Virus record (IMG/VR): IMGVR_UViG_3300044612_000981 | Location: 1-24,741 of that record | Strand: one strand, 5' to 3' | Source of the DNA: a virus | Length of the DNA: 24,741 nt | Part shown: positions 2,217 through 24,591 of the stretch, piece after piece | Layout: each line of letters begins with the position of its first letter | Numbering within the stretch: position 1 is the first letter of the stretch | Made by a program: the position numbers and the translations under genes | The notes under the pieces: generated by a model | Databases searched by the model: none | What the model saw: only the letters and a program-made list of their open reading frames with translations | Told to the model about the DNA's origin: nothing

Positions 2217-2705
2217 TCACAGCGTGAAACGCACTCGGCCAGAGTCGAACGCTGCATCCAGGATCTGATTCCACTCTCGGATCGCATCCAGCTCCGTCAT
2301 CTCAGCCAGCTTGACCGACTCTCGAAGCTTCAACCACCGCGGCCACAGCTCATGACTACGCACTGCATCCATCACTCGCGGCGTCTCCAGCCTCGCCACA
2401 GCCGCTTCCTTGTTCGCTGCCGTTGCTCGCTTCGATGCGTCCGAGGCTCGCAGATGCATTGCGTTGCTCACCAAGCACTGCGGAATTAGCTCACGCTCGT
2501 AAGCCTTCGGTGCTTGCACCGTTCCAAGGAACCAGAGATCGATCACTCGCTGCACCTCGTCCCGGTCGACTCTGGTTAGAGCCTTGGCCCACAGGTCGAG
2601 CGTTCGTTCTGGCTGCGGCGACTTGGTCAGCATCCAATCGGCCACATCTGGCAAGGCTGGAAACACGTCGTCCTTGATGCACCGCTTCGCTTCGTCGATC
2701 GTCAT
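2217..2705 (-). CDS. Hypothetical protein, possible phage helicase loader (162 aa)
   Basis: No firm family assignment. ATG at 2705 (MTIDEAKRC) is used rather than an upstream TTG: it overlaps the TGA of the replication gene as ATGA and has AAGGAG eight bases upstream, so the two are translationally coupled. The N-terminal half (residues 1-75) has helix-rich W/L patterns (WMLTKSPQPERTLDLWAKAL, RVDRDEVQRVIDLWFLG, then AYERELIPQCL) reminiscent of small helicase-loader proteins of the G39P/lambda-P kind. The C-terminal half is charged and helical (ASDASKRATAANKEAAVARLE; WPRWLKLRESVKLAEM). Being the last gene after the replication initiator supports a replication role by position only. Confidence 0.55.
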   Translation of the reverse strand: MTIDEAKRCIKDDVFPALPDVADWMLTKSPQPERTLDLWAKALTRVDRDEVQRVIDLWFLGTVQAPKAYERELIPQCLVSNAMHLRASDASKRATAANKEAAVARLETPRVMDAVRSHELWPRWLKLRESVKLAEMTELDAIREWNQILDAAFDSGRVRFTL

Positions 2706-3427
2706 TTGCAAAACTCCTTGATGGCCTCAGATTTCGATTTAGACGCACTCCGGCCGGTTGAGCCAACCGAACGTGCCTGGAAGTCGTTGGAGCTGTCCAA
2801 AAGCGATTTGGCTTGCTTCAGGATCGAGAATTCCAGATCCGCCTTCCCCTTGGCCTCGCCACGCCTCAAGACTTCCATCAGCGTCGCCTCCTGGGTCGTC
2901 GCTGGCATGCGTCGGCCGGTGACCGCGAACACGGTGTCCAGGAACCGAGTCCACGGATCGACCACCCATTTGGGGAGATCTAGGTTTTGAACCGCGTTTT
3001 CCTCTGTGTGTGTGTGTGTAATACTCTTCTCTTCTCTTCTCTTCTCTGGTAACGCTTTGAGCGTTACATCTGTAACGCTTCGAGCGTTACGGTGTTTCGT
3101 TACTCTTTGCTGTGTTTTTGCACGTTTTTTGGCGGTTGAGCCGTTGTGCTCGACGAAATTTGGGAACGTGATTTGGTAGTTTTCACCAGTCAGCCAGCCC
3201 ACGTTTCGCATTGCTGACGCGAACCCTGTTACACCAGTGAAACGGTCGAGCGTTACATCTGTAACGCTCACAGCGTTACCGTCTGCCGTGTTTTGGTCGG
3301 CCCACGTCCACAGCTTCCAGAGGCAACCAACGACGTGCAGCTCCGACATTTCGAGCTGGCAAGCGATCTGGATCACCCGCCAGTCGGTGTCGAGGTTGCA
3401 ACGCATTTTGATCCAATCACCGGCCAT
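2702..3427 (-). CDS. Phage replication initiator-like protein (O/DnaD-like, 241 aa)
   Basis: Residues 1 to about 110 resemble the N-terminal winged-helix domain of phage replication organisers: MAGDWIKMRCNLDTDWRVIQIA, then LHVVGCLWKLWTWAD, LDRFTGVTGFASAMRNVGWL, and ITFPNFVEHNG followed by KKRAKTQQRVTKHR. The centre is low-complexity and charged (LPEKRREEKSITHTHTEEN). The C-terminal 100 residues are helical and may bind a helicase or its loader. ATG at 3427. A striking feature is that the DNA contains seven copies of GTAACGCT in alternating orientation (3049-3090 and 3249-3279), which make the peptide SVTDVTL appear twice. This is the lambda-O-like arrangement of an origin inside the initiator gene. 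It is followed by the gene at 2217-2705 with ATGA overlap. Confidence 0.72.
   Translation of the reverse strand: MAGDWIKMRCNLDTDWRVIQIACQLEMSELHVVGCLWKLWTWADQNTADGNAVSVTDVTLDRFTGVTGFASAMRNVGWLTGENYQITFPNFVEHNGSTAKKRAKTQQRVTKHRNARSVTDVTLKALPEKRREEKSITHTHTEENAVQNLDLPKWVVDPWTRFLDTVFAVTGRRMPATTQEATLMEVLRRGEAKGKADLEFSILKQAKSLLDSSNDFQARSVGSTGRSASKSKSEAIKEFCK
3005..3047. repeat. Simple-sequence tract: (TG)n then (CTCTT)n
   Basis: TG alternation (3005-3019) is followed by a pyrimidine run with CTCTT periods (3024-3047), so the minus strand is a pure purine GA-rich run. It lies directly beside the first iteron cluster, inside the coding region, and encodes the low-complexity EKRREEKSITHTHTEE. Such mirror or purine tracts can melt or form alternative structures. 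Here this fits a DNA-unwinding part of a candidate origin, by inference. Confidence 0.6.
3049..3090. repeat. Iteron cluster 1 (four GTAACGCT half-sites), candidate replication origin
   Basis: GTAACGCT at 3049-3056 and 3072-3079 on plus; its complement AGCGTTAC at 3060-3067 and 3083-3090. Starts are 11, 12 and 11 bp apart, about one helical turn, in alternating orientation. A degenerate CGTTAC follows at 3098. The sites are inside the replication initiator gene. Confidence 0.72.
3249..3279. repeat. Iteron cluster 2 (three GTAACGCT half-sites)
   Basis: AGCGTTAC at 3249-3256, GTAACGCT at 3261-3268, AGCGTTAC at 3272-3279. The unit, spacing (12 and 11 bp) and alternation are the same as in cluster 1, about 160 bp away in the same gene. 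Confidence 0.7.
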
Positions 3428-3430
3428 TAT

Positions 3431-4066
3431 TTAGTTCCTGCACTTATACGAAAGAACAAAATGGACCCATTCAATGTGATGGTCCGACAACTGAAACCAC
3501 TCTCCTCGTATTCTCAAGTCGGAAAAGATCGCGTGCATTCGCTTTTCATATTTTCCGCACTCTTTGAATTGTGCGAGCAGGTTAAGTCGCGGATCCTCAG
3601 CTTGCAGCGTCTTTTCACGCAGACGAGGATTTGAAGACCGACCTATTTTCACAAGGCCATTTGTGTGCTTCATCAAGTATAAAAAATCATTTTTTTTGTC
3701 TATGCTTGATTGTTGTTCAAATCTGTTTTGTACGTCATCCATAACCTTAATTTTAGGCTTCAAAATATACTGCTCGTTTGCGGATTCCCAAAACGAGTCC
3801 GCAAGCTCACAGAAACATTCAAGACAAGTGACCATAAACTCAATGCTTTGATGGCAAGGTTCAGGTTGATAGTCAAAAATGGATGAGGCAACATGATGAA
3901 TAGAACAATATGGGCCTCTTGCAAATCTCCAGCGATTGTCTCTGCGTATGAATCCTATCTTTTCGCTCCCTTCTACAACTGCAATTTCAACACCATCAAA
4001 TAAATGTCGTATTTGGACGCAGTTCTTCAACGTTGGCAGCTTGTGTTTGTCTTTTTTATTCAACAC
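3431..4066 (-). CDS. T5orf172/GIY-YIG-superfamily-like protein (211 aa)
   Basis: The C-terminal 75 residues (FLYLMKHTNGLVKIGRSSNPRLREKTLQ..., then YEKRMHAIFSDLRIRGEWFQL) match the T5orf172/Mug113 branch of the GIY-YIG nuclease fold, with the conserved VKIG-R-S-N-P-R, an E/H in the middle and the GEWF end. The N-terminal 130 residues are unrecognised, with several Cys/His (CSIHH, CHQS, CLECFCE) that might bind zinc. Start is GTG at 4066 with GGAA upstream; TTG at 4063 is possible. The gene is visibly AT-richer than both neighbours and sits between the replication gene and the methyltransferase block, like a late-acquired homing-type gene. Nuclease activity is inferred, not shown. Confidence 0.7.
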   Translation of the reverse strand: MLNKKDKHKLPTLKNCVQIRHLFDGVEIAVVEGSEKIGFIRRDNRWRFARGPYCSIHHVASSIFDYQPEPCHQSIEFMVTCLECFCELADSFWESANEQYILKPKIKVMDDVQNRFEQQSSIDKKNDFLYLMKHTNGLVKIGRSSNPRLREKTLQAEDPRLNLLAQFKECGKYEKRMHAIFSDLRIRGEWFQLSDHHIEWVHFVLSYKCRN

Positions 4067-4088: not shown

Positions 4089-4274
4089 CTACCCAATCAC
4101 CTCACGCATCCTACGTTGCACATGCTCAGGCATCTTGCCTGGGCCGTATCGTCGCCGCAGCTCGGCATACGCATGCCGAACTGCTTCTCGCTCCTTCGCT
4201 TCGCCATCGATCGTCATGATCGCGACCCGCTCCTCAAACCACTCGATCATGTCCGCTTCAGAATAATCGTCCAC
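4089..4274 (-). CDS. Small hypothetical protein (61 aa)
   Basis: Short, charged and helical protein (SEADMIEWFEERVAIMTIDG, then EREAVRHAYAELRRRYGPGK). Start is GTG at 4274, overlapping the end of the methyltransferase gene by 17 bp, with AGGA about 10 bases upstream. The overlap and same strand suggest translation coupled to the methyltransferase. No domain is recognised; the size and helical make-up would fit a small regulator or partner of a neighbouring enzyme. Confidence 0.55.
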   Translation of the reverse strand: MDDYSEADMIEWFEERVAIMTIDGEAKEREAVRHAYAELRRRYGPGKMPEHVQRRMREVIG

Positions 4275-5175
4275 GGCTTTGGTCCTGTTCGACGCGTCGC
4301 AGGTTCTTTGCCGCTTCGTCGAAGTATGATTCCTTCAGCTCAATACCCAGGAACTTCCTGTTGAGCTTTAATGCTTCATGGCCTTCGGAACCGATGCCTG
4401 CAAACGGACTCAGCACCACGTCTCCCTCCTTGCTCCATAGTTGCAAGCAGCGATGAATCACGTCTAGTTGAAGTGGACATATGTGACGCGTGTCCGACTC
4501 ATGCCGAGCCGCACGAGCGTTTAGCGTGTTGCTCTGGTCGATGTCCATCCATATTGGTGACGCGTACCGTTGCCAAATGTCGATTGATAGATTGCCAGTC
4601 CGCTCAAACGCTTCGCCAGCAAAGTGATCGAACTCGCCAGCGATCGGATCTGGATTCTTCCCAGGCTTGCGGAACGTACAAACGTAATCCGGAATGCCTT
4701 GGCGACTCATCGACGAGTCTTTGCAGACTTGCTTGTGCAACAGCCCGAGAGCCTTTGTTCGCTGCATCGCCGTCACCGGATCTTTCCAAATGCAAACCTC
4801 GGAATGATAGATCCATCCGTACTCCTGGAAGCATCGGATGATGTCACCTCTAAAGTCCCGTATTCCGATGTAGCCGTCGTTGGTGATTGTGCTCGGCATG
4901 TTCATGCAATGCACACTGCACAATCGGCCTGGCTTGATGACGCGATACAGTTGCTCGACCAGAAAGCCGAAATGCTGAAAGAACTCCGCATCGCTTTCGC
5001 AGTTGCCCATATCGTTGATGATGTCGCTGTAAACGTACAGTGACGCAAACGGCGGACTGAACACTGAAAAGCCTATTGAATCGTCTGGGATGTCTCGGAT
5101 AACCTCGCAGCAATCTCCGTTGTAGAGATGCCATCCGTTGCCCGATATGTCCCGCTTTGCTGCTACCTCGCTCAC
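4258..5175 (-). CDS. DNA methyltransferase, beta-class, cytosine-N4 type (305 aa)
   Basis: Motif IV appears as SPPF at residues 40-43 (after GDCCEVIRDIPDDSIGFSVF, the usual lead-in), and the S-adenosylmethionine-binding motif I as LSPFAGIGSEG at about 255-265. Motif IV before motif I is the beta arrangement. Serine in SPP(F/Y) is typical of m4C enzymes, whereas m6A enzymes usually have DPPY, so the exact base is inferred. The target-recognition region is likely residues 130-230 (QRTKALGLLHKQVCKDSSMSRQGIPDYV is family-like). It starts with GTG four bases after the helicase stop, with GAGG just before. It is paired with the SNF2-like helicase and probably protects phage DNA from host restriction. 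No endonuclease partner is visible. Confidence 0.9.
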   Translation of the reverse strand: MSEVAAKRDISGNGWHLYNGDCCEVIRDIPDDSIGFSVFSPPFASLYVYSDIINDMGNCESDAEFFQHFGFLVEQLYRVIKPGRLCSVHCMNMPSTITNDGYIGIRDFRGDIIRCFQEYGWIYHSEVCIWKDPVTAMQRTKALGLLHKQVCKDSSMSRQGIPDYVCTFRKPGKNPDPIAGEFDHFAGEAFERTGNLSIDIWQRYASPIWMDIDQSNTLNARAARHESDTRHICPLQLDVIHRCLQLWSKEGDVVLSPFAGIGSEGHEALKLNRKFLGIELKESYFDEAAKNLRRVEQDQSRGRLF

Positions 5176-5178
5176 TTC

Positions 5179-6591
5179 CTATTCCTCCACTGTTAAAAAT
5201 GATGGCAACGAGAACTTGCCCGTTGCTCGATACTCCCGCTTCCCTTCCCGCAATCCAAATTCGTCCAGCGTCGATTCCCGCATTGCATCAGCCATTCCGC
5301 ATCGCATGGCCTCAAAGTCTGATTCTTTGCGAGCGATCGCCGAGTTAATAGCCGACTCGGTGTCTGCAAGAACAATATGCACGTCGACTGGCTTCTCTTG
5401 ACCAAATCGCCAGCAGCGTCGGATGGCTTGGTAGTACATCTCAAACGAGTAGGACAGACCCGCAAACACCATGCGATTGCAGTGCTGCCAATTCATGCCC
5501 ATGCCCGCAATGGACGGCTTGCTGATTAGTACGTCGTATTTTCCGAAGGAGAAGTCGGCCAGCTTACGTTCCTTCTCGGTGTCCTTCATGTCACCGCGTA
5601 CCTCGCAGGCTTGCGGCATCAGCTCGGCCAGCATGTCGCTTTCGTAGTTCGTGTCGCACCATACAACGCATGGTCCATCAGCGGCCTCGACAATACGTTT
5701 GGCTTGCTGGCATCTGGCCTCGCATGTCATCCGCTTTTCTTCATGGATCGTTGTGGCTGTGATCCCGCTGACGTTAAACAGAAAACCAGTCGGAGCAACC
5801 ATCACATCTGCTTCAACAATATGGCGAGTCACCCGCAATGCTGGAATGTCGTAGCCTTTGTCGCTGCCGCCAATGTCGCTTGGCTTGCCAATGCAGACCG
5901 CCCATTGAGCAACCCAGCTCCAGAAGTCTTTCTGTCCGTGCGGCATCAAAACCCAGCGTGACGTGTCGCCTGAGTCATGGTAAAAGAATCGATTGAGCAT
6001 ATCGGTAGCGTCGCACACTCCCAGAAACTCGGCGTGATTGCCCAATTCCATGTGATCGTTCGGAGCTGGAGTTGCCGTACAAGCCAATCGAAAACGAGTC
6101 TCCTTATACCTATCGCAAAGCAAGTCCCGCGTCTTGCCGTTCATGCCCTTCAAAATGCTTGATTCATCGAGCACAACGCCACCAAACTTCACGCCGTCGA
6201 ACTTGTGCAGCTTTTCATAGTTGATGAGATTGATTCCTTCGATGAGTTCCGATAAATCATCGCAAACAGCGACATCGCACTTGATGCCGAACTTTTCTGC
6301 CTCGCGTTTCGTTTGTTGCCGCACTCCAACCGGACAATGGATTACCACCGGCATCTTCGTTTCGTTGTGTACTACTCTGGCCCATTCAAGTTGCTGGAAT
6401 GTCTTGCCCATGCCGCAATCCTCAAACAGAGCAGCTCGGCCACGCCGAATGGCCCAAGCAACAACTCGCTTCTGCCAGTCCATCAGCTTTTTATTGAGGA
6501 TCTTTTCGCTGATCTCAATGCCTGTGGCATTAACCACTCGCCGCTTGTTAGCGATAAATTGTTCATAGTGGATATCTGTATTCTTAAGCAC
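5179..6591 (-). CDS. SNF2-type superfamily II helicase/ATPase (470 aa)
   Basis: Walker A EDCGMGKT at 57-64 after the Q-motif-like LMDWQKRVVAWAI; Walker B/DEAH position is DESS (142-145) followed by ILKG; motif III CTATPAPND (171-179); C-terminal RecA lobe with VWCDTNYESDML, VLISKPSIAGMGMNWQ and motif VI QAIRRCWRFGQ (388-398). The DESS form and RRCWRFGQ are typical of phage Snf2-like proteins. Start is GTG at 6591 with GGAG eight bases upstream, overlapping the previous gene by 8 bp. It moves on or remodels duplex DNA using ATP. The adjacent methyltransferase, four bases downstream, suggests a joint role in DNA modification or replication. Confidence 0.9.
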   Translation of the reverse strand: MLKNTDIHYEQFIANKRRVVNATGIEISEKILNKKLMDWQKRVVAWAIRRGRAALFEDCGMGKTFQQLEWARVVHNETKMPVVIHCPVGVRQQTKREAEKFGIKCDVAVCDDLSELIEGINLINYEKLHKFDGVKFGGVVLDESSILKGMNGKTRDLLCDRYKETRFRLACTATPAPNDHMELGNHAEFLGVCDATDMLNRFFYHDSGDTSRWVLMPHGQKDFWSWVAQWAVCIGKPSDIGGSDKGYDIPALRVTRHIVEADVMVAPTGFLFNVSGITATTIHEEKRMTCEARCQQAKRIVEAADGPCVVWCDTNYESDMLAELMPQACEVRGDMKDTEKERKLADFSFGKYDVLISKPSIAGMGMNWQHCNRMVFAGLSYSFEMYYQAIRRCWRFGQEKPVDVHIVLADTESAINSAIARKESDFEAMRCGMADAMRESTLDEFGLREGKREYRATGKFSLPSFLTVEE

Positions 6592-7667: not shown

Positions 7668-8339
7668 TTACACCTCAACCGTTTCTTCCAGTGCCACTGG
7701 AGTTGGCGGTGCAGCGTTCTTGATGATGTTGCCGACGCGACGAGGTGCAGCGGTGTTGATCACCTCGCCTTCGACCGTGTCGGAAACTTCCTCCGAGGTA
7801 TGCAGTCCCATCGCCAACTCCGGTGCATAGGCTCGAATGAACCAACCCGCAGCTCGGTAGCGAAGCATCTGTTCCGGCATTGTTTGCCACTTGGAACCCT
7901 GCTTTCCGTACCATCCTTCTTTCTTCGCCAGTCCGACAGTGATCTCGCTTCCTTCGAGCATCTCGCCAGTGCACAGCTCAACGGCACAAGCGATGCAACC
8001 ATGCGTATCGGTGCCCGGTTGTCCGGTCCATCGGTAGCGGATCGCAGAGAACTTCCCGCAGGAGTTGAACGTCGCAATCAAGAACTGACTCGACCAACTC
8101 GGCCTGCCGTGCACGATGTACAGATTCTGCATCACCATCAGCGGATCGGCACCCATGCGATTCGACATGTTCAAAGCAACAACGCAGTTGGCGATGTTGT
8201 TTTGAAACTCCTTCGGCACCAGCGTTGACGACGACAGCAGCTTTGCCGCTCGCTGCGTCAGCATGAAACTCTTTTCGCTGCCAAAACCGATGGAAACATC
8301 ATCAGCACTTACCAACTCTTTTTCGATTACAACACTCAT
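7668..8339 (-). CDS. RecT-like single-strand annealing protein (223 aa)
   Basis: Core resembles phage RecT-family proteins: NNIANCVVALNMSNRMGADPLMVMQNLYIVHGRPSWSSQFLIATFN, a region on substrate presentation (GWYGKQGSKWQTMPEQMLRYRAAGWFIRAYAPELAMGL) and a variable C-terminal tail (SEEVSDTVEGEV...). The ATG at 8339 (MSVVIEKEL) has a strong GGAGGAG; an in-frame start at 8366 lies inside the exonuclease gene and lacks support. It follows the exonuclease by four bases. Together they form a RecE/RecT-type module for annealing of resected DNA ends during phage recombination or replication. Confidence 0.8.
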   Translation of the reverse strand: MSVVIEKELVSADDVSIGFGSEKSFMLTQRAAKLLSSSTLVPKEFQNNIANCVVALNMSNRMGADPLMVMQNLYIVHGRPSWSSQFLIATFNSCGKFSAIRYRWTGQPGTDTHGCIACAVELCTGEMLEGSEITVGLAKKEGWYGKQGSKWQTMPEQMLRYRAAGWFIRAYAPELAMGLHTSEEVSDTVEGEVINTAAPRRVGNIIKNAAPPTPVALEETVEV

Positions 8340-8343
8340 CAAA

Positions 8344-9168
8344 CTACTCCTCCAAGGCAAAAACATGCTTGTCGTACCAACGCGGCAAGCTCAGATTCAC
8401 AACACCACTCGACCAGTTCGCGATCCAGTCATCACTAGCCAGCCGCGACTTGTATTCAACGAGCAACTGCTCGATCTCATCAAACCCAATTGCAAGTGAC
8501 TGATCGTCCAGCTCGTACACTGCCGACTCATACGGTGCAGCAGTGTTGACTACGAAGAAGAAAAACCGGAAGTCGTCTCCGTACTTCTCCCGGCAAGCCA
8601 GCCTGTAGAATGCTGCTTGCCGTGCATATCCAAACGCACCCACGCTCTTACAGAAGGCACTTGGAGACGCGTCCCTAGTGGTCTTGATGTCAATAATGAT
8701 TTGCGATTCTGGCAGCACCATATCCGGCTTGCACTTGCACGGAACACCAAGCCAGTCAAACATAATCGGCACCTCGATCACCGCATCCCGAGGCAACTCG
8801 TTGATGTAGTACTTTCCGATGTCGTGATTGCTCAGCGACTCGACGCACTCACAAGCTTGCTGGTACAGATCGCCGTCGACGAGTTGCTTGCCCGCTGCCT
8901 CGGCCTGGAACTCAGCCCACGCAATCTTTCCGTCCGTTGTGCGACGATCGCACTTTGGAACCACCGCGTAACGTGAACTAAACGTGTCCGGTTCCAACGC
9001 CAGCGAGTGCACCAGCTCGCCAAGTGCCATCGATGACGACTGCTCTTTGACAAGCGTCTCGGTAACAAACGTCTGCAAAAACTCTTGCGGACTCCGCTTC
9101 AAAACCGACAGCATTGAGTTGCTAATTCTCGACGTGTCGGCGTGATAACTATCGTTTTCGATTCCCAT
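8344..9168 (-). CDS. PD-(D/E)XK exonuclease, RecE/YqaJ-like (274 aa)
   Basis: Start ATG at 9168 (MGIENDSYH) has GGGAGGA just upstream; the 9207 extension lacks support. ISNSMLSVLKRSPQEFL and GELVHSLALEPDTF are typical opening motifs of this phage exonuclease family. The catalytic core is KPDMV (residues 147-151), then IIIDIKTT (157-164), giving the D...(D/E)xK arrangement as D..DIK; a following YARQAAFY helix carries the conserved Q/Y residues. The product is a 5'-3' resecting nuclease that would supply single-strand tails to the RecT-like partner encoded next. The end overlaps nothing, but the start overlaps the upstream gene by 20 bp. Confidence 0.88.
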   Translation of the reverse strand: MGIENDSYHADTSRISNSMLSVLKRSPQEFLQTFVTETLVKEQSSSMALGELVHSLALEPDTFSSRYAVVPKCDRRTTDGKIAWAEFQAEAAGKQLVDGDLYQQACECVESLSNHDIGKYYINELPRDAVIEVPIMFDWLGVPCKCKPDMVLPESQIIIDIKTTRDASPSAFCKSVGAFGYARQAAFYRLACREKYGDDFRFFFFVVNTAAPYESAVYELDDQSLAIGFDEIEQLLVEYKSRLASDDWIANWSSGVVNLSLPRWYDKHVFALEE

Positions 9169-9583
9169 CTCTTCCTCCCATCCCAAACAAAAACCGCACA
9201 AACTCACAAAGCACTTGCCACCTGTTCTCGCGATCGCGTCGATTCATCGCAGCGGCGATCACGTAGATCCGCTCAGGATGCAGACGAAACGCCTGCGTTT
9301 CAGTCACCAACCAATACACCTGGTCGCATGTTTCGTGATTCCAGATCCAATACAAACCACAACGCATCCATCCTGGACGGACGTTGAGCAAATTGAGCTT
9401 GAGGAACTCAGCCTCCAGCCAGTAAAAATCGATGTGGTCAAGCGAGATCAATCCCTTGCCACCGCAGTAGCAGCAGTCGTCGGCAAGTTGCCCGCGACGC
9501 TCGCACCACTCGCAATCGATTGACTCAATTACGTCATCGATAAAGCGTTCGATGCAGCGATCAATTGCTTGTTCGGTTGTCAT
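9149..9583 (-). CDS. Zinc-finger (DnaJ-type motif) hypothetical protein (144 aa)
   Basis: ATG at 9583 (MTTEQAIDRC) has GGAAAGGAA upstream and overlaps the 3' end of csrA; the longer frame start at 9664 would overlap csrA far more. CEWCERRG (residues 24-31) and CCYCGGKG (37-44) give two CxxC units of the CxxCxGxG kind found in DnaJ zinc domains. The rest (IDFYWLEAEFLKLNLLNVRPGWMRCGLYWIWNHETCDQVYWLVTETQAFRL) is Trp/Tyr-rich with no recognised fold. The C-terminus is basic (GGRDGNRKR). It lies between csrA and the exonuclease in the same operon. The function is unknown, possibly protein or nucleic-acid binding. Confidence 0.72.
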   Translation of the reverse strand: MTTEQAIDRCIERFIDDVIESIDCEWCERRGQLADDCCYCGGKGLISLDHIDFYWLEAEFLKLNLLNVRPGWMRCGLYWIWNHETCDQVYWLVTETQAFRLHPERIYVIAAAMNRRDRENRWQVLCEFVRFLFGMGGRDGNRKR

Positions 9584-9758
9584 CGGTCGATTCCTTTCCG
9601 TGTTTAATGGCTGCGTAGATTTCCTCTCTGTGAACTGGAATGTCTTTGGGAGCGGTGATGCCAAGCCTCAGCTTTCCGCCGGAAAAGAAGACGACCTGAA
9701 TAATGATGTCGTCGCCAATGCGAATCGATTCGCCAATGTCCCGTGCAAGTACCAGCAT
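9561..9758 (-). CDS. csrA: CsrA-like post-transcriptional regulator (65 aa)
   Basis: The complete family signature is present: MLVLAR (with the RNA-contacting Arg 6), GESIRIGDDIIIQVV, GGKLRLGI, APKDIPVHREEIYAAI with the second RNA-binding Arg in VHRE. Length of 65 is normal. CsrA binds GGA motifs in leaders and blocks or changes translation. Here it is the first gene of the leftward recombination operon, so a phage copy could re-tune host mRNAs or time its own operon. Its own leader has GGA at the ribosome site (CGAAAGGAATT) and ACGGACG 20 bp before the ATG, which would permit autoregulation (inference). The C-terminal tail (GKESTDDNRTSN) is polar and free. Confidence 0.93.
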   Translation of the reverse strand: MLVLARDIGESIRIGDDIIIQVVFFSGGKLRLGITAPKDIPVHREEIYAAIKHGKESTDDNRTSN

Positions 9759-9918
9759 GGGTAATTCCTTTCGGTGCGTCCGTTGCCAAAAACTAGGCAG
9801 GCACCACTAAGAGTTGATTGCTAACCGTGTGACGCTTGCAGTTCAGTGCTCGCGTTCACACGTCCTGTCGTTCAGGTGTGCAAGAGATTATCGGGCTGCA
9901 AAATGCTTTGCAATAGGT
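9759..9918 (-). promoter_or_regulatory. Leader and likely promoter region of the csrA operon
   Basis: About 160 bp without an ORF upstream of csrA. On the minus strand GATAAT (9892-9887) resembles a -10 box, with TTGCAA (9913-9908) 15 bp upstream as a weak -35. TTGCAA is also part of the repeat at 9904-9923, so a regulator binding there would cover the promoter. Around 9857-9880 an imperfect hairpin (CCTG/CAGG with flanking CACA/TGTG) is possible in the transcript. The promoter call is weak. Confidence 0.35.
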
Positions 9919-9923
9919 CTAGT
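9904..9923. repeat. Direct repeat copy 1 flanking the HTH gene (TTGCAAT/CTAGT)
   Basis: TGCTTTGCAAT, four bases, CTAGT. The second copy lies at 10137-10155 with a three-base gap. The repeats bracket the HTH gene; copy 1 overlaps its stop codon. They could be operators of the HTH protein or duplicated insertion or attachment sequence. Confidence 0.6.
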
Positions 9924-10119
9924 CGTCTTTTTTCCCAAAATTTGGATTGCCACTACCTCGCTTCCAGGTCGACTCGATCTTTTTTACCTGCTTTTCTGTT
10001 AGCAAAAGCGAGTTCCCGTACTTGAGTTGAAATCCTAGAACTTTTGCCCAACGAGAGACCGTCGCAGTCGAACAACCTATCTTTTTTGCCGCTTCTGTTG
10101 CTGTAACCATGCCTTTCAT
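9919..10119 (-). CDS. Small MerR/excisionase-like helix-turn-helix protein (66 aa)
   Basis: ATG at 10119 has a near-perfect AAGGAGGT five bases upstream; a longer in-frame start at 10290 lies in the divergent plus-strand region and is rejected. MVTATEAAKKIGCSTATVSRWAKVLGFQLKYGNSLLLTEKQVKKIE is a MerR-like winged helix-turn-helix, with recognition helix around TATVSRWAKVLG. The tail is basic (STWKRGSGNPNFGKKDD). It stands at the centre of the divergent region, facing the two plus-strand genes and upstream of csrA. This fits a small transcription regulator or an excisionase-type accessory protein. TTGCAAT repeats at 9908, 10129 and 10141 are candidate binding sites. Confidence 0.75.
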   Translation of the reverse strand: MKGMVTATEAAKKIGCSTATVSRWAKVLGFQLKYGNSLLLTEKQVKKIESTWKRGSGNPNFGKKDD

Positions 10120-10257
10120 AGTACCTCCTTGCAATCTGCTTTGCAATTGACTAGTGTAAAAAACACAGGCAAAGGAGGCTGAACCGTGATCCCAATCAAT
10201 GGACCATCGACCTTCAGTGCTTGTGTTAGCGGAGAGGAAACACCAAAAGGAGAGATC
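10120..10257. promoter_or_regulatory. Divergent control region between the HTH gene and the plus-strand genes
   Basis: Contains TTGCAAT at 10129-10135 and 10141-10147 (12 bp apart), the second direct-repeat copy at 10137-10155, an inverted repeat GTGT/ACAC around an A-run (10154-10167) and TTGACT (10147-10152) as a possible plus-strand -35. No good -10 was found. The transcript of the plus-strand genes starts somewhere here. A GTG at 10186 could extend the first plus-strand gene but lacks a ribosome site. Confidence 0.45.
10137..10155. repeat. Direct repeat copy 2 flanking the HTH gene (TTGCAAT/CTAGT)
   Basis: TGCTTTGCAAT, three bases, CTAGT; partner of 9904-9923. It lies directly upstream of the HTH gene's ribosome binding site. 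Confidence 0.6.
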
Positions 10258-10265
10258 ATGAGCAA
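10234..10265 (+). repeat. Duplicated translation-initiation leader, copy 1
   Basis: 32 bp beginning GAGGAAACACC, including AAAAGGAG, ATG and the codons for MSN/K. It is identical to 10506-10537 except for one base (G against A before ATC). It provides the ribosome binding site of the gene at 10258. Confidence 0.85.
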
Positions 10266-10500
10266 CGGACAGTGCGTGACTTGCAAACACTGGGGAAACG
10301 CAAAGGACGGAGGCAAGTCATTCCGAGAGTGCCAGCGGATTTTGCATGATGTGGTTCAGGCGTCGGACTGCGATGAGTTTAGTAGAGATCCCGAAAACGT
10401 TTTAGAAGAGACCGCCGTTGTCATCGATGGTAGCGGATATTTTGCAAGACTGCGATCAAAGGCTGATTTTGGTTGCGTCATGCACGAGGCTAAGTCCTAG
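10258..10500 (+). CDS. Small Cys-rich hypothetical protein (80 aa)
   Basis: ATG at 10258 with AAAAGGAG is fixed by the shared leader. CVTCKHWGNAKDGGKSFRECQRI (residues 6-28) has CxxC-KHW...C, followed by SDCDEF, an acidic stretch, and AVVIDGSGYFARLRSKADFGCVMHE. The CKHW...C...DFGC pattern occurs in small phage proteins and suggests a metal-binding fold held by four cysteines. It is one of only two plus-strand genes in a minus-strand genome, so it is transcribed separately from the region near the HTH regulator. The function is unknown; the regulatory placement fits an early or accessory (moron-like) gene. Confidence 0.75.
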   Translation: MSNGQCVTCKHWGNAKDGGKSFRECQRILHDVVQASDCDEFSRDPENVLEETAVVIDGSGYFARLRSKADFGCVMHEAKS

Positions 10501-12127: not shown

Positions 12128-13444
12128 TTAGGTGTCGATTGACAAATACCGTCTCCAGCGATCCGCCATCGCGTCCGCTGTGTACTCGCTGAGATCAATA
12201 CTGCATGCTGTAGCGGTTTCTATAGCATGTGCTATAGCCGATGCGTCCGAGTCCACATCGAGGATCGAAGGACCGAAGTCTCCGTGACGCTCGGCCAGAT
12301 CGTGCATGATTCCGAGATTGGTTGAGACGACTGGCAAGCCAAAGTGCATCGCTTCAACGACCGAAAGCCCGAATCCCTCGCTTGATGGAACAGTCGCGAA
12401 GACGTCGATGGCGTTGAGGAAGTTGCCGATGTGCTGGATGGGTTCAAGCATGCGAACGCGATCACTGACTCCAAGATCGTTGGCAATCTGGCGTACTCGT
12501 TCGGCATGCTTGGTGAGCCAACCGCAAAGGACTAAATACGCTCCATCCATCTTCGCAATGGCTTGAACTAACAGCTCGCAGCGTTTCTCGGTGGCGATGC
12601 GTCCGGTGTATCCGACAACAAAAGCATCCTGGGGAATCTCGCAACGTAGACGCATCTCCTCGCGACTTATTGTCGGAATGAGTCGCTCGGTTTCGATTCC
12701 GTTTTCGATGGTTTCGCATGGTCGGCCTGTCCATCGAGTGACGTGCTCAGAGACAACCCTGGAAACACCCACCAGACGCCGGCAGACGCCGTGGGAACTC
12801 ATAACCCAGTCGCGTGTCCAGTCGCAGTAACCGTGAGCCAGAAGTATCAAATCAGAGTCGAGGATCGGTGCTGCCTTTGCTACGCAGCTCATGACGATCG
12901 GGACGCCGTGCTTTGCCGCATCAAGTAATCGGACGCGAGGGGACATGCCAAGCAGCGTCTCGGCAACAGACTCATCGGCAATGTTGCCGTGTACAACGGT
13001 TCCGAAGGATCGCAAACGGCGAGCCATCGAAATCGACCAGCACTCAAGACCACCGAAGTGGATCGGTTGCCAGAATGCAATCTCGGATCGCCAGAGACGG
13101 AGTGCCTCGTCGACGGTGATCTGCGGGTATCGTTTGCGTTCGTTGTCAAGCTTTGCGTTGACTTCGTTATGGACGTCGATTGTCCATTTGAAGAAGTCGT
13201 CAGGAGTCTCGAAGCGTGGCGGTGTTCGCTCCTTGATCTGACGATAGCCTTCCTCGCACTTGCAATATCGTGGAATGGTGCGTTCCCATTTCTCAAGCCA
13301 TTCGGGATCGTTGCCTCGGTATCGATGGAGGTGGAACCAAGGATTCTGAGCGAACCAGGCGAACGCTCGATTCTGCTGTTGCACGATCGGTTTTGGTTCC
13401 GAGGATCGTGTCTCTGGGCTCTCAAAGTGTACGCCAACTCGCAT
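12128..13444 (-). CDS. Glycosyltransferase (GT4-like) fused to an Erv/ALR-like N-terminal region (438 aa)
   Basis: Residues from about 190 to the end form a GT4-type C-terminal nucleotide-sugar domain: VVGYTGRIATEKRCELLVQAI, LVLCGWLTKHAERVRQIA, VRMLEPIQHIGNFLNAIDVFATVPSSEGFGLSVVEAMHFGLPVVSTNLG, with the EGFG..VVEAM signature. Residues about 35-105 (WLEKWERTIPRYCKCEEGY..., then PPRFETPDDFFKWTIDVHNEVNAKL) look like the Erv1/ALR-type segment with HNxVNxxL. The thiol motif here is CKC, not CxxC, so oxidase activity is doubtful. It follows the virion genes and may decorate virion or host-surface glycans. ATG at 13444. Confidence 0.8.
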   Translation of the reverse strand: MRVGVHFESPETRSSEPKPIVQQQNRAFAWFAQNPWFHLHRYRGNDPEWLEKWERTIPRYCKCEEGYRQIKERTPPRFETPDDFFKWTIDVHNEVNAKLDNERKRYPQITVDEALRLWRSEIAFWQPIHFGGLECWSISMARRLRSFGTVVHGNIADESVAETLLGMSPRVRLLDAAKHGVPIVMSCVAKAAPILDSDLILLAHGYCDWTRDWVMSSHGVCRRLVGVSRVVSEHVTRWTGRPCETIENGIETERLIPTISREEMRLRCEIPQDAFVVGYTGRIATEKRCELLVQAIAKMDGAYLVLCGWLTKHAERVRQIANDLGVSDRVRMLEPIQHIGNFLNAIDVFATVPSSEGFGLSVVEAMHFGLPVVSTNLGIMHDLAERHGDFGPSILDVDSDASAIAHAIETATACSIDLSEYTADAMADRWRRYLSIDT

Positions 13445-22392: not shown

Positions 22393-24591
22393 CTAGGTGC
22401 GGTTTCCGAAGATACCGCGGTGATCGATGACGGCAGCAGCCATCGTTTGACGCACGTAGTAGTGGTAGGTGTCGTTGTCCTTGTTCCATTCGCTTTCGAG
22501 GACTGGGGACTCTTCACCGTTGAGGAAGGTGATTTCCACGGTGTCGATCTGCGAGTTGTCGGCGATCGCGTACCAGTTGGTTGCACTGTTCGCGTCGAGC
22601 AGTGGCGTCGAGACGACTTGCAACGGACGAACGCCGTTCACGCCGTAGATGTTGACCACGCCTTCGTTGCCGTTGCTCTGTGCGTAGGACTGGCTGTTGA
22701 CCAGTTCCAACGCGGTGCCAGAGTAAGCAAGCGGAACGAGCAACGTGCGAGGTTGCAGGTTCAGGTAAACGTCGCTCGACAGACCCTTTTGAAGGCCCAT
22801 GAACTTGAACGCCTCGTTGAGAGTCGTTACGCCAGGAGCTGCAACAGACACGCCAGTGATGTTGGTTCCGCTGGTGTGCGATGCAGAGAACAACGCAAAG
22901 CCGTCCGCCATCGTTGGGTTGGCGAGGAGTGCGTCGTAAACGACCTTTTCTTGGGTTCGGCGAGCTGCGTTTCCGTGCATGGCTGGGATTCGCGACAGTG
23001 CGTCGAGATCGTCGTTGATGACGGTTTCCCAGGTGACGGAGAACTTTTTGCCGAACTTCTCAACCTTGTACGATCGCTTGGAATCGCTGATTGATCCCTC
23101 TGGGTACGGTGCCCCTTCGGGAACCATTTCCAAGTTTGGCGATTCGCCAAGCTGGATGCGGTTGATGTTCTTGAAGTCCTCGACCGATTGAGCTTGGCGA
23201 GCCCAAAGCGACCAGGTGTACGGTGCTTCTTCGTAGGCGGCTCGCAGCGTCTTTGTTGCTGCGTCGAGCAACAGATTGGCAAACGATCCACTGGTGTGGT
23301 ACGCTTCAACCGAACGTCGAACGTTGAGACGGTTGAAGGTGGGTTCGTGACCCATCGCCATCCGTGCGACGTCTTGGCGAGTGTATCGCTCAGGATTGAT
23401 TCCCATTCGGCGAACGCACAGTTCGGCCAAACGGTAAACGCCCAGGTTGCGGAATTGCTCCGATCCTTGGACTTGTGGTGCCTGTCGCTTGACTTGTCCT
23501 TGGAAACATCGCTGCACGAGGCCAGCGGATGCGACTTCCATGAACTTGTCTTGCTCGGACACGGTGACTGCAATGCTGGAGCCTTCGATGGCTCCGCTTC
23601 CCAATGGTGTTTGAGCCATTCTTCGAATAATCTCCCGTCGGGCATCTGCAACAGAAACGTTGTCATCGATGAGCTTGTCTGCGAGTGCCCGATCTTGTCT
23701 CGCGAGCTTCACGTCATTGATGATGGTTTGGCGGCGGATCTTTTCGGCAGCGAGTTGGCGTGCAACCTCGGCCTTGACCGCTTCTTCTTGAGATGGTGCA
23801 GCGGAGACCATTTCGGCATCCGCTCGAACCGCTTCGCCCTCCATTGGTTTGTCTTCATACATCGATTCGATCTCTGGCATCTCTGGTGCCTCGATCGCTT
23901 CCGAGCCGGCTGCACCAGCAAGAAACGTGATGATTTGAACTGGATCGGTCATACCTTCCGGCACGCCGAGTTTTTGAACTGCGGCCATGAGTGCCTCGTC
24001 CATTCTCGTAATCCCTTCCCGGTCGCTAGACCGACGAACAGTAGAATTAGGATCTGCACCCGTTGCACAGATCGAAGCGTTGTGTGGCTCCCAAGCGGTG
24101 ACAATCTCCGCTGGTCCATCTATCACGTTCCCACTCGGAGTCGTGTATCGTTGACCCTCTGGCACGTACTGTCGTGCGAGGATTTGTGCATCAATGCTGA
24201 AGTCGTTGAGGTGTCCCTCGTTGTATCTGGTCGCAATCTTTTGGCTTTCGTCGTCGCTCGCGAACTCGGGGAGTCCAACGAGTGCATCGCCCTCGATCTT
24301 GATAGATCGGATGGAACCGAAGACATTGCGAACGGTTTGATCGTTGTGGCTGTCGACGATCGGTAGCTGATTGCGATCCTGTCGGAATCGGACTCCGTTC
24401 ATGAGCAATACTTGAGCAACCCATTGACGCCTGGCCTCGTCGTAGACCATGACAGGAGTCTCGGTGGCAATGACTGCCTTGCCGTCCTTGATGACTCCGA
24501 ACTGTCGCTGGATGACCGGCGATGGATCGTTCTTTGCGATCGCTTGTGCAATCTTCTTGCGACGGATTGCGTTTATTTCGGCAAGTGTCAT
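22393..24591 (-). CDS. Prohead protease fused to major capsid protein (Mu gpT-like) (732 aa)
   Basis: Residues 1 to about 190 form a prohead protease: PIVDSHNDQ (catalytic His 82) and NDFSIDA (Ser 132). Residues about 200-360 are a charged helical scaffold-like linker (PSQEEAVKAEVARQLAAEKIRRQTIINDVKLARQDRALADKLIDD). Residues about 370-732 are a gpT-like major capsid domain (NRLNVRRSVEAYHTSGSFANLLLDAATKTLRAAYEE, then VPEGAPYPEGSISDSKRSYKVEKFGKKFSVTWETVINDDLDALSRIP). So one polypeptide delivers protease, scaffold and shell, and the protease must cut itself free. Such fusions are known in some phages. It starts as ATGA over the end of the upstream gene. Confidence 0.85.
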   Translation of the reverse strand: MTLAEINAIRRKKIAQAIAKNDPSPVIQRQFGVIKDGKAVIATETPVMVYDEARRQWVAQVLLMNGVRFRQDRNQLPIVDSHNDQTVRNVFGSIRSIKIEGDALVGLPEFASDDESQKIATRYNEGHLNDFSIDAQILARQYVPEGQRYTTPSGNVIDGPAEIVTAWEPHNASICATGADPNSTVRRSSDREGITRMDEALMAAVQKLGVPEGMTDPVQIITFLAGAAGSEAIEAPEMPEIESMYEDKPMEGEAVRADAEMVSAAPSQEEAVKAEVARQLAAEKIRRQTIINDVKLARQDRALADKLIDDNVSVADARREIIRRMAQTPLGSGAIEGSSIAVTVSEQDKFMEVASAGLVQRCFQGQVKRQAPQVQGSEQFRNLGVYRLAELCVRRMGINPERYTRQDVARMAMGHEPTFNRLNVRRSVEAYHTSGSFANLLLDAATKTLRAAYEEAPYTWSLWARQAQSVEDFKNINRIQLGESPNLEMVPEGAPYPEGSISDSKRSYKVEKFGKKFSVTWETVINDDLDALSRIPAMHGNAARRTQEKVVYDALLANPTMADGFALFSASHTSGTNITGVSVAAPGVTTLNEAFKFMGLQKGLSSDVYLNLQPRTLLVPLAYSGTALELVNSQSYAQSNGNEGVVNIYGVNGVRPLQVVSTPLLDANSATNWYAIADNSQIDTVEITFLNGEESPVLESEWNKDNDTYHYYVRQTMAAAVIDHRGIFGNRT

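Follow-up and report, generated by a model that had tools for sequence, protein, structure and literature searches.

Where does replication of a phage genome begin, and can the starting point be written inside the gene for the protein that recognizes it? The locus that raises this question lies in a 24,741-bp viral record (IMGVR_UViG_3300044612_000981), the whole of which is referred to here as the window. An earlier note had proposed an origin within the initiator gene, formed by seven copies of an octamer that fall in two clusters between 3005 and 3279 and alternate in orientation at 11-12 bp steps. All of these particulars were borne out. Comparison with relatives gives good support to the wider proposal: a putative origin in the initiator coding sequence, whose sites share one face of the helix and adjoin a melting element.

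The elements of the locus are as follows (coordinates of the window):
2702-3427, minus strand: initiator gene, 241 aa, PHROG 2509 replication initiation protein
3140-3427, minus strand: codons 1-96, winged-helix-like N-terminal domain (structure model, pLDDT mostly >90)
3086-3139, minus strand: codons 97-114, predicted basic helix STAKKRAKTQQRVTKHRN (structure model); residues 101, 105, 109 and 112 track site type
2771-3004, minus strand: codons 142-219, C-terminal helical domain (structure model)
3249-3279: cluster A, GTAACGCT at 3249(-), 3261(+) and 3272(-), start steps 12/11
3261-3279: cluster A palindrome, 19 bp, GTAACGCT-CAC-AGCGTTAC, a perfect iteron-like dyad
3249-3256, minus strand: third cluster A half-site GTAACGCT, 12 bp from its neighbour
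3049-3090: cluster B, GTAACGCT at 3049(+), 3060(-), 3072(+) and 3083(-), start steps 11/12/11
3072-3090: cluster B palindrome, 19 bp, GTAACGCT-TCG-AGCGTTAC, perfect
3049-3067: cluster B palindrome, 19 bp, GTAACGCT-TTG-AGCGTTAC, perfect, 23 bp from the 3072-3090 palindrome
3024-3047, minus (coding) strand: purine tract, 24 nt, (AGAAG)n, coding for EKRREEK, pyrimidine on the other strand; proposed duplex-unwinding element
3006-3019: (CA)n/(TG)n run adjoining the purine tract, coding for THTHT
2217-2711, minus strand: next gene, 164 aa, in the position that a helicase loader or DnaB helicase gene occupies in homologues

The initiator protein

A profile search places the protein in PHROG 2509 (phrog_2509, E=6.1e-48, residues 1-143); it has no Pfam match. 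Relatives in this family include the 'replication initiation protein' or 'primosomal protein I' of phages epsilon15, SPN1S and CP2, and YdaU of the Rac prophage. In the structure model, helix 97-114 directly precedes a disordered linker, a stretch modelled with only moderate confidence, and the C-terminal domain (142-219) is expected to contact the helicase or its loader. A DnaT domain (PF17948) is present in 14 of 88 homologues and was not found in the window protein by Pfam search. Sequence and fold searches of the PDB returned no significant relative, the fold matches being weak. Predicted-fold matches to replisome organizers (Phage_rep_org_N, DUF1376, Lin1244-type) are likewise mostly weak, with one homologue matching Phage_rep_org_N at 8e-4.

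The closest match to the initiator in a cellular genome is in a Blastopirellula MAG (L332; residues 1-127, 71% identical). Relatives also occur in other Planctomycetota MAGs (L333, L369, L395). Together these matches suggest that the host of the window phage is a planctomycete.

Palindromic sites within the initiator gene

The seven exact copies of GTAACGCT lie within 3049-3279, and their orientation alternates from copy to copy in both clusters. An eighth exact copy is solitary, at 1049. The three palindromes do not recur anywhere in the 24.7-kb record, even when 2 mismatches are allowed. Read along the coding strand, cluster A (nt 149-179) comes first, then cluster B (nt 338-379), the purine tract (nt 381-404) and the (CA)n run (nt 409-422). 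The (TG)n run and pyrimidine tract that the earlier note had placed beside the sites are present at 3006-3019 and 3024-3047. The peptide SVTDVTL also occurs twice, as it had stated, at residues 54-60 and 117-123. The two clusters share a 42-nt segment with 83% similarity.

Such repetition could follow from the peptide. When the codons of the gene were shuffled synonymously 300 times, no shuffle gave seven copies of any 8-mer, the expected maximum being 2.04; because none reached seven, the array is not a by-product of the peptide. The same analysis was applied to a family set of 197 non-redundant initiator genes (<90% identity). Here, the mean maximum 8-mer count is 3.15 in the real genes versus 2.07 in the shuffled ones, and 45 of the 197, the window's included, exceed all 300 of their own shuffles. 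By this homologue comparison, of the kind that the earlier note had proposed as a check, the sites are kept at the DNA level, at the expense of codon choice.

Sites across the family

An unbiased scan of 2.9 million viral contigs for a 31-bp pattern returned eight stretches, seven of them within a PHROG 2509 initiator gene; of these, one comes from a divergent relative and two are copies from a further lineage. The remaining stretch (L089) is on a fragment of about 1 kb with the same two-cluster spacing and no resolved ORF. The family is large, each viral-contig search yielding, as a lower bound, over 560 confirmed relatives.

Five word types, GTAACGC, GTCACGC, GTCCGCA, GTAGACG and GTCCCCA, cover 173 of the 197 genes under a strict rule (at least three sites and a margin of 2), leaving 24 without a clear type. 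This rule replaced a first classifier that chance single sites had misled (L023, L164, L081). GTAACGC is the type of the window and of Rac ydaU; GTCCGCA is that of epsilon15 and many proteobacterial phages. Half-sites in the same direction are 11 bp apart (or 22, or 33), and convergent pairs form 19-bp palindromes, or palindromes of 12 and 20 bp in the GTAGACG type. The usual cluster consists of two forward sites followed by two reversed sites, 11 bp apart, around a 19-bp palindrome. The claim that the unit is inverted every turn therefore holds for the window phage and its near relatives, to which strict alternation is limited, and is not the rule of the family. Genes of the GTCCGCA type differ in having their first cluster at nt 54-78.

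Clusters A and B are of the same type in all 111 genes in which both are clearly typable. Site density per kb is 8.0 in A and 13.5 in B, compared with 0.6-1.4 in the rest of the gene and 0.57 in the flanks. In 44 whole records, 70 of 70 palindromes fall inside the initiator gene, a reversed-pattern control gives 0, and no second palindrome array was found elsewhere. As in an in-gene origin of the lambda type, arrayed sites of the kind bound by initiators thus lie within the initiator gene. The clusters also share more 7-mers (7.7) than shuffles do (4.3) or a control region does (5.7); since this excess is clear but noisy, the cleaner type test was preferred. Strict helical phasing between the clusters was considered and fails, the distances being 189, 195, 200, 210, 279, 288 and 300 bp.

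Two genes have other arrangements. One (L036) contains an unusual array of seven CCGTCACG words at nt 376-495, five of them at 11-bp steps. In the other (L274), a gene one domain of which is changed, ACGTAACG words occur at nt 190, 201, 488 and 500.

A purine tract beside cluster B

Of the 197 genes, 180 contain a stretch of purines 15 nt or longer (median 23) in nt 300-600; in nt 1-300 the count is 1. Codon usage was examined in peptide-defined linker [EKR] segments, where 91.2% of arginines are AGA or AGG versus 17.5% elsewhere; an arginine-codon test in purine-defined runs was dropped as circular. Of the stretch examined, the 30 nt that follow the last B site have the lowest average stability, with an AT content of 59% versus about 40%, and are 78% purine. 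Taken together, the codon and stability data indicate an easily melted purine tract that is kept through codon choice. A tract of this kind adjoins the sites across the family and, at 3024-3047, in the window, as a lambda-type origin would have it. The earlier note had assigned the melting part to both tracts. The (AGAAG)n purine tract is the conserved part; the (CA)n/(TG)n run is common to near relatives and was not seen to be conserved across the family.

A probable recognition helix that follows site type

Among about 120 aligned N-terminal positions, those that follow type best are 105, 101, 112 and 109, which are spaced along one face of a helix. In the GTCCGC type, Arg101 is found in 87 of 88 genes, and Asp or Glu105 and Lys109 in 88 of 88 each. 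The GTAGAC type has Glu101, Lys105 and Gln109 in 8/8. Thr105 and Val109 each occur in 41 of 44 aligned genes of the GTAACG type, and the GTCACG type combines Ala or Gly105 with Lys or Gln109. The main exceptions at residue 105 are L024 (Asp105 with GTCACG) and L027 (Glu105, from an earlier set). The apparent pairing of residue and base is that of usual chemistry: acidic side chains for C, Lys or Arg for G.

Shared descent alone is an unlikely cause of this match. Gene pairs that are 80-87% identical outside the helix and the cluster A codons differ in type exactly when the helix residues differ. In a clade of 59 genes, type fits residues 101, 105 and 109 in 53 of 53 typable genes, with about 15 type changes on the best tree, which is weakly supported. 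When type was predicted from training genes <50% identical, balanced accuracy was 0.735 with the helix residues, compared with 0.217 (maximum 0.43) with random variable residues. These close-pair and low-identity-training controls were used in place of independent-pair sign tests on the tree, which were not significant and underpowered, there being just 1-3 differing pairs on branches with good support. As the trees are weakly supported, the number of independent type switches is uncertain.

Since sites and DNA-reading helix change together in hundreds of related phages, the reading code is largely deducible from sequence. We lean, with some reserve, towards a phage-wide initiator family with a near-digital origin code, in which half-sites GT-x1-x2-x3 would be read by helix residues 109, 105 and 101. 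Under this code, residue 109 would pair Val with A and Lys or Gln with C; residue 105, Thr, Ala or Gly with A, Asp or Glu with C, and Lys with G; and residue 101, Arg with G. Helix and in-gene sites would travel together in one short cassette, and by exchanging it phages would repeatedly change their replication compatibility type while the rest of the initiator and its helicase partner stay unchanged.

Natural exchanges of site type

Two relatives illustrate such changes. Over the 2.3 kb that end at gene nt 20, L007 and the window share 92% identity, and from nt 378 on they share 91%. Between these boundaries, in nt 21-377, which hold the binding domain and both clusters, DNA similarity to the window was not detected and the sites are GTCCCC. 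A further relative (L009) has the same right-hand boundary. In L022, VTDVTL is coded GTGACAGATGTCACG rather than GTTACAGATGTAACG, so that the word has switched and the peptide is the same. The earlier note had held that homologues conserving the peptide and not the octamer would speak against the proposal. L022 is the one such case, but all of its sites are of the GTCACGC type throughout the gene and its helix is of the GTCACGC type as well. Because the word switched gene-wide and the helix matches, L022 supports reading at the DNA level.

Directly upstream of the window initiator (3431-4066, minus strand) is a gene for a MUG113/T5orf172 protein, similar to a homing-endonuclease PHROG. This protein might take part in moving the origin cassette.

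Gene neighbourhood and GC skew

Among 95 homologues, the next gene encodes a P-like loader in 27, a DnaC-like loader in 25 and a DnaB helicase in 18-19; a helicase or loader thus adjoins the initiator in most homologues. The window's own neighbour has no Pfam or PHROG match and no recognised loader domain. Its structure model is all-helical and of low confidence (pLDDT 58), too poor for a fold search. In the Rac prophage of E. coli, ydaU carries the sites, and the DnaC-like ydaV comes next. An active origin, oriJ, is known in Rac (PMC3945230), and that paper mentions it without a place in a gene; its place relative to ydaU was not found in the literature on Rac searched.

The earlier note had looked to a GC-skew peak at 3000-3300. 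None is seen in the window, where the skew changes sign at about 9750-10500, near 10 kb rather than 3 kb. Among ten near-complete relatives, six have an extremum no more than about 2.2 kb from the gene; in the remaining four the distance is 4.5-9.7 kb. The sign change in the window sits at the boundary of replication-type and structural-type genes.

The early region includes minus-strand genes at 4258-5175, 5179-6591, 7668-8366 and 8344-9207 for a DNA methyltransferase, an SNF2-type helicase, a RecT-like annealing protein and a DUF3799 exonuclease. At 9561-9758 (minus strand) is a phage-encoded CsrA homologue (PF02599, 6e-22), which is unusual for phages. A glycosyltransferase at 12128-13444 (minus strand) is oddly combined with an Erv1/Alr-like segment, which spans residues 56-105 (PF04777, 2e-7). 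In the 732-aa protein at 22393-24591 (minus strand), a capsid domain occupies residues 429-728, and the long N-terminal portion may be a fused prohead protease.

Comparison with lambda and SPP1

The arrangement resembles that of lambda, where the origin lies in the middle of initiator gene O. In lambda, too, every iteron is an inverted repeat, 18-19 bp long, to which a dimer of O binds, and the spacing of about 20-24 bp is alike in the two systems (PMC7466680, PMC6022878). The contrast that the earlier note had drawn with lambda's 'direct iterons' is misleading for this reason. In both systems an AT-rich, purine-rich tract directly follows the last site (coding for KEKRK in lambda and EKRREEK here), and the lambda initiator has an N-terminal binding domain, a linker and a C-terminal contact for the helicase loader, as is predicted here (PMC7466680, PMC6022878). 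The loader gene comes next in lambda, and a loader or helicase gene does so in most homologues of the window gene. In contrast to lambda, there are two clusters here, separated by coding sequence for the binding domain; the half-sites are short (6-8 bp), with the same grammar over many word types; and type tracks a helix that follows the winged-helix domain. Comparison of the initiator with lambda O (Phage_rep_O) by hhalign gave a probability of 0.5% and an E of 0.12, and none of 88 homologues has a Phage_rep_O match in Pfam.

Bacillus phage SPP1 offers a second parallel, as the repeats of oriL lie inside initiator gene 38, with an AT-rich unwinding element and genes for loader (39) and helicase (40) (PMC6316719). 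SPP1 differs in that its repeats are direct and that it has another origin, oriR; in the present family the sites are palindromes and a second array was not found. The best reading of these comparisons is an in-gene origin of the lambda/SPP1 kind, whose initiator is not detectably related to lambda O.

A model for initiation and its alternatives

It is almost certain, judging from the comparative data, that the protein binds sites written in its own coding sequence to start genome copying. The phage replication origin would, very probably, be located inside the gene of its own initiator, with dimers binding palindromes, the purine tract opening and the helicase being recruited. In this scheme, initiator dimers would bind the 19-bp palindromes, each made of two GTAACGCT half-sites, in the two clusters, with the bases read by the basic helix 97-114 that follows the winged-helix domain. 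The assembled complex would then strain the purine tract adjoining cluster B, where the duplex would open. Next, the C-terminal domain would bring in the replicative helicase, usually via a loader that the neighbouring gene encodes. The data show that the coding sequence bends to keep the sites at the DNA level, that these lie in this gene alone, and that they change together with the helix; the destabilised tract and the gene neighbourhood are likewise observed. We infer binding, dimer stoichiometry, opening and the start of replication at this place; the binding, opening and recruitment steps are modelled on lambda and SPP1.

Could the sites instead be operators through which the initiator controls its own gene or operon, with replication starting elsewhere? 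Initiators often autoregulate, and the co-switching of sites and helix, which points to self-binding, would suit this role. We nevertheless judge it improbable: the sites are found 150-380 nt into the gene and not at its promoter, a destabilised purine tract comes after cluster B in most homologues, a helicase or loader is usually the next gene, and the 44 whole records offer no alternative palindrome array as origin.

Far less credible is a self-recognition or immunity element that silences the co-encoded protein, for which the precedent is aba, a cognate DNA element that lies within the phage gene bstA and comes in variants of matched specificity (PMC8585504). That element carries two terminal direct repeats, in contrast to the palindrome arrays and melting tract described here. 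Moreover, the protein belongs to a replication initiation family, some members of which have DnaT domains, and the genes sit in replication operons rather than a defence locus. Just as remote is the idea that the repeats are by-products of a conserved SVTDVTL repeat or of a duplication within the gene. The doubled peptide and the alike 42-nt segments are what it would predict, but peptide-preserving shuffles lose the repeats, other lineages have other words at comparable places over different peptides (L007, L073), L022 keeps VTDVTL with another word, and site type goes with the residues of the helix.

An origin inside the initiator gene, bound by that gene's product, is thus the preferred reading. 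The family is annotated merely as replication initiation protein, and a mapped origin for it was not found; for the epsilon15, SPN1S, CP2 and Rac genes, no description of sites, melting tract or specificity types was found in the literature searched. The gene represents a clear case in which one sequence codes for a protein and for that protein's putative binding sites, and the natural exchanges show how origin types switch. Should the reading hold, sequence alone would place the origin to within about 50 bp in several hundred phages, among them Salmonella phage epsilon15 and the Rac prophage of E. coli K-12, in both of which the initiator gene carries the sites, and the DNA-recognition code of this initiator family would become directly testable.
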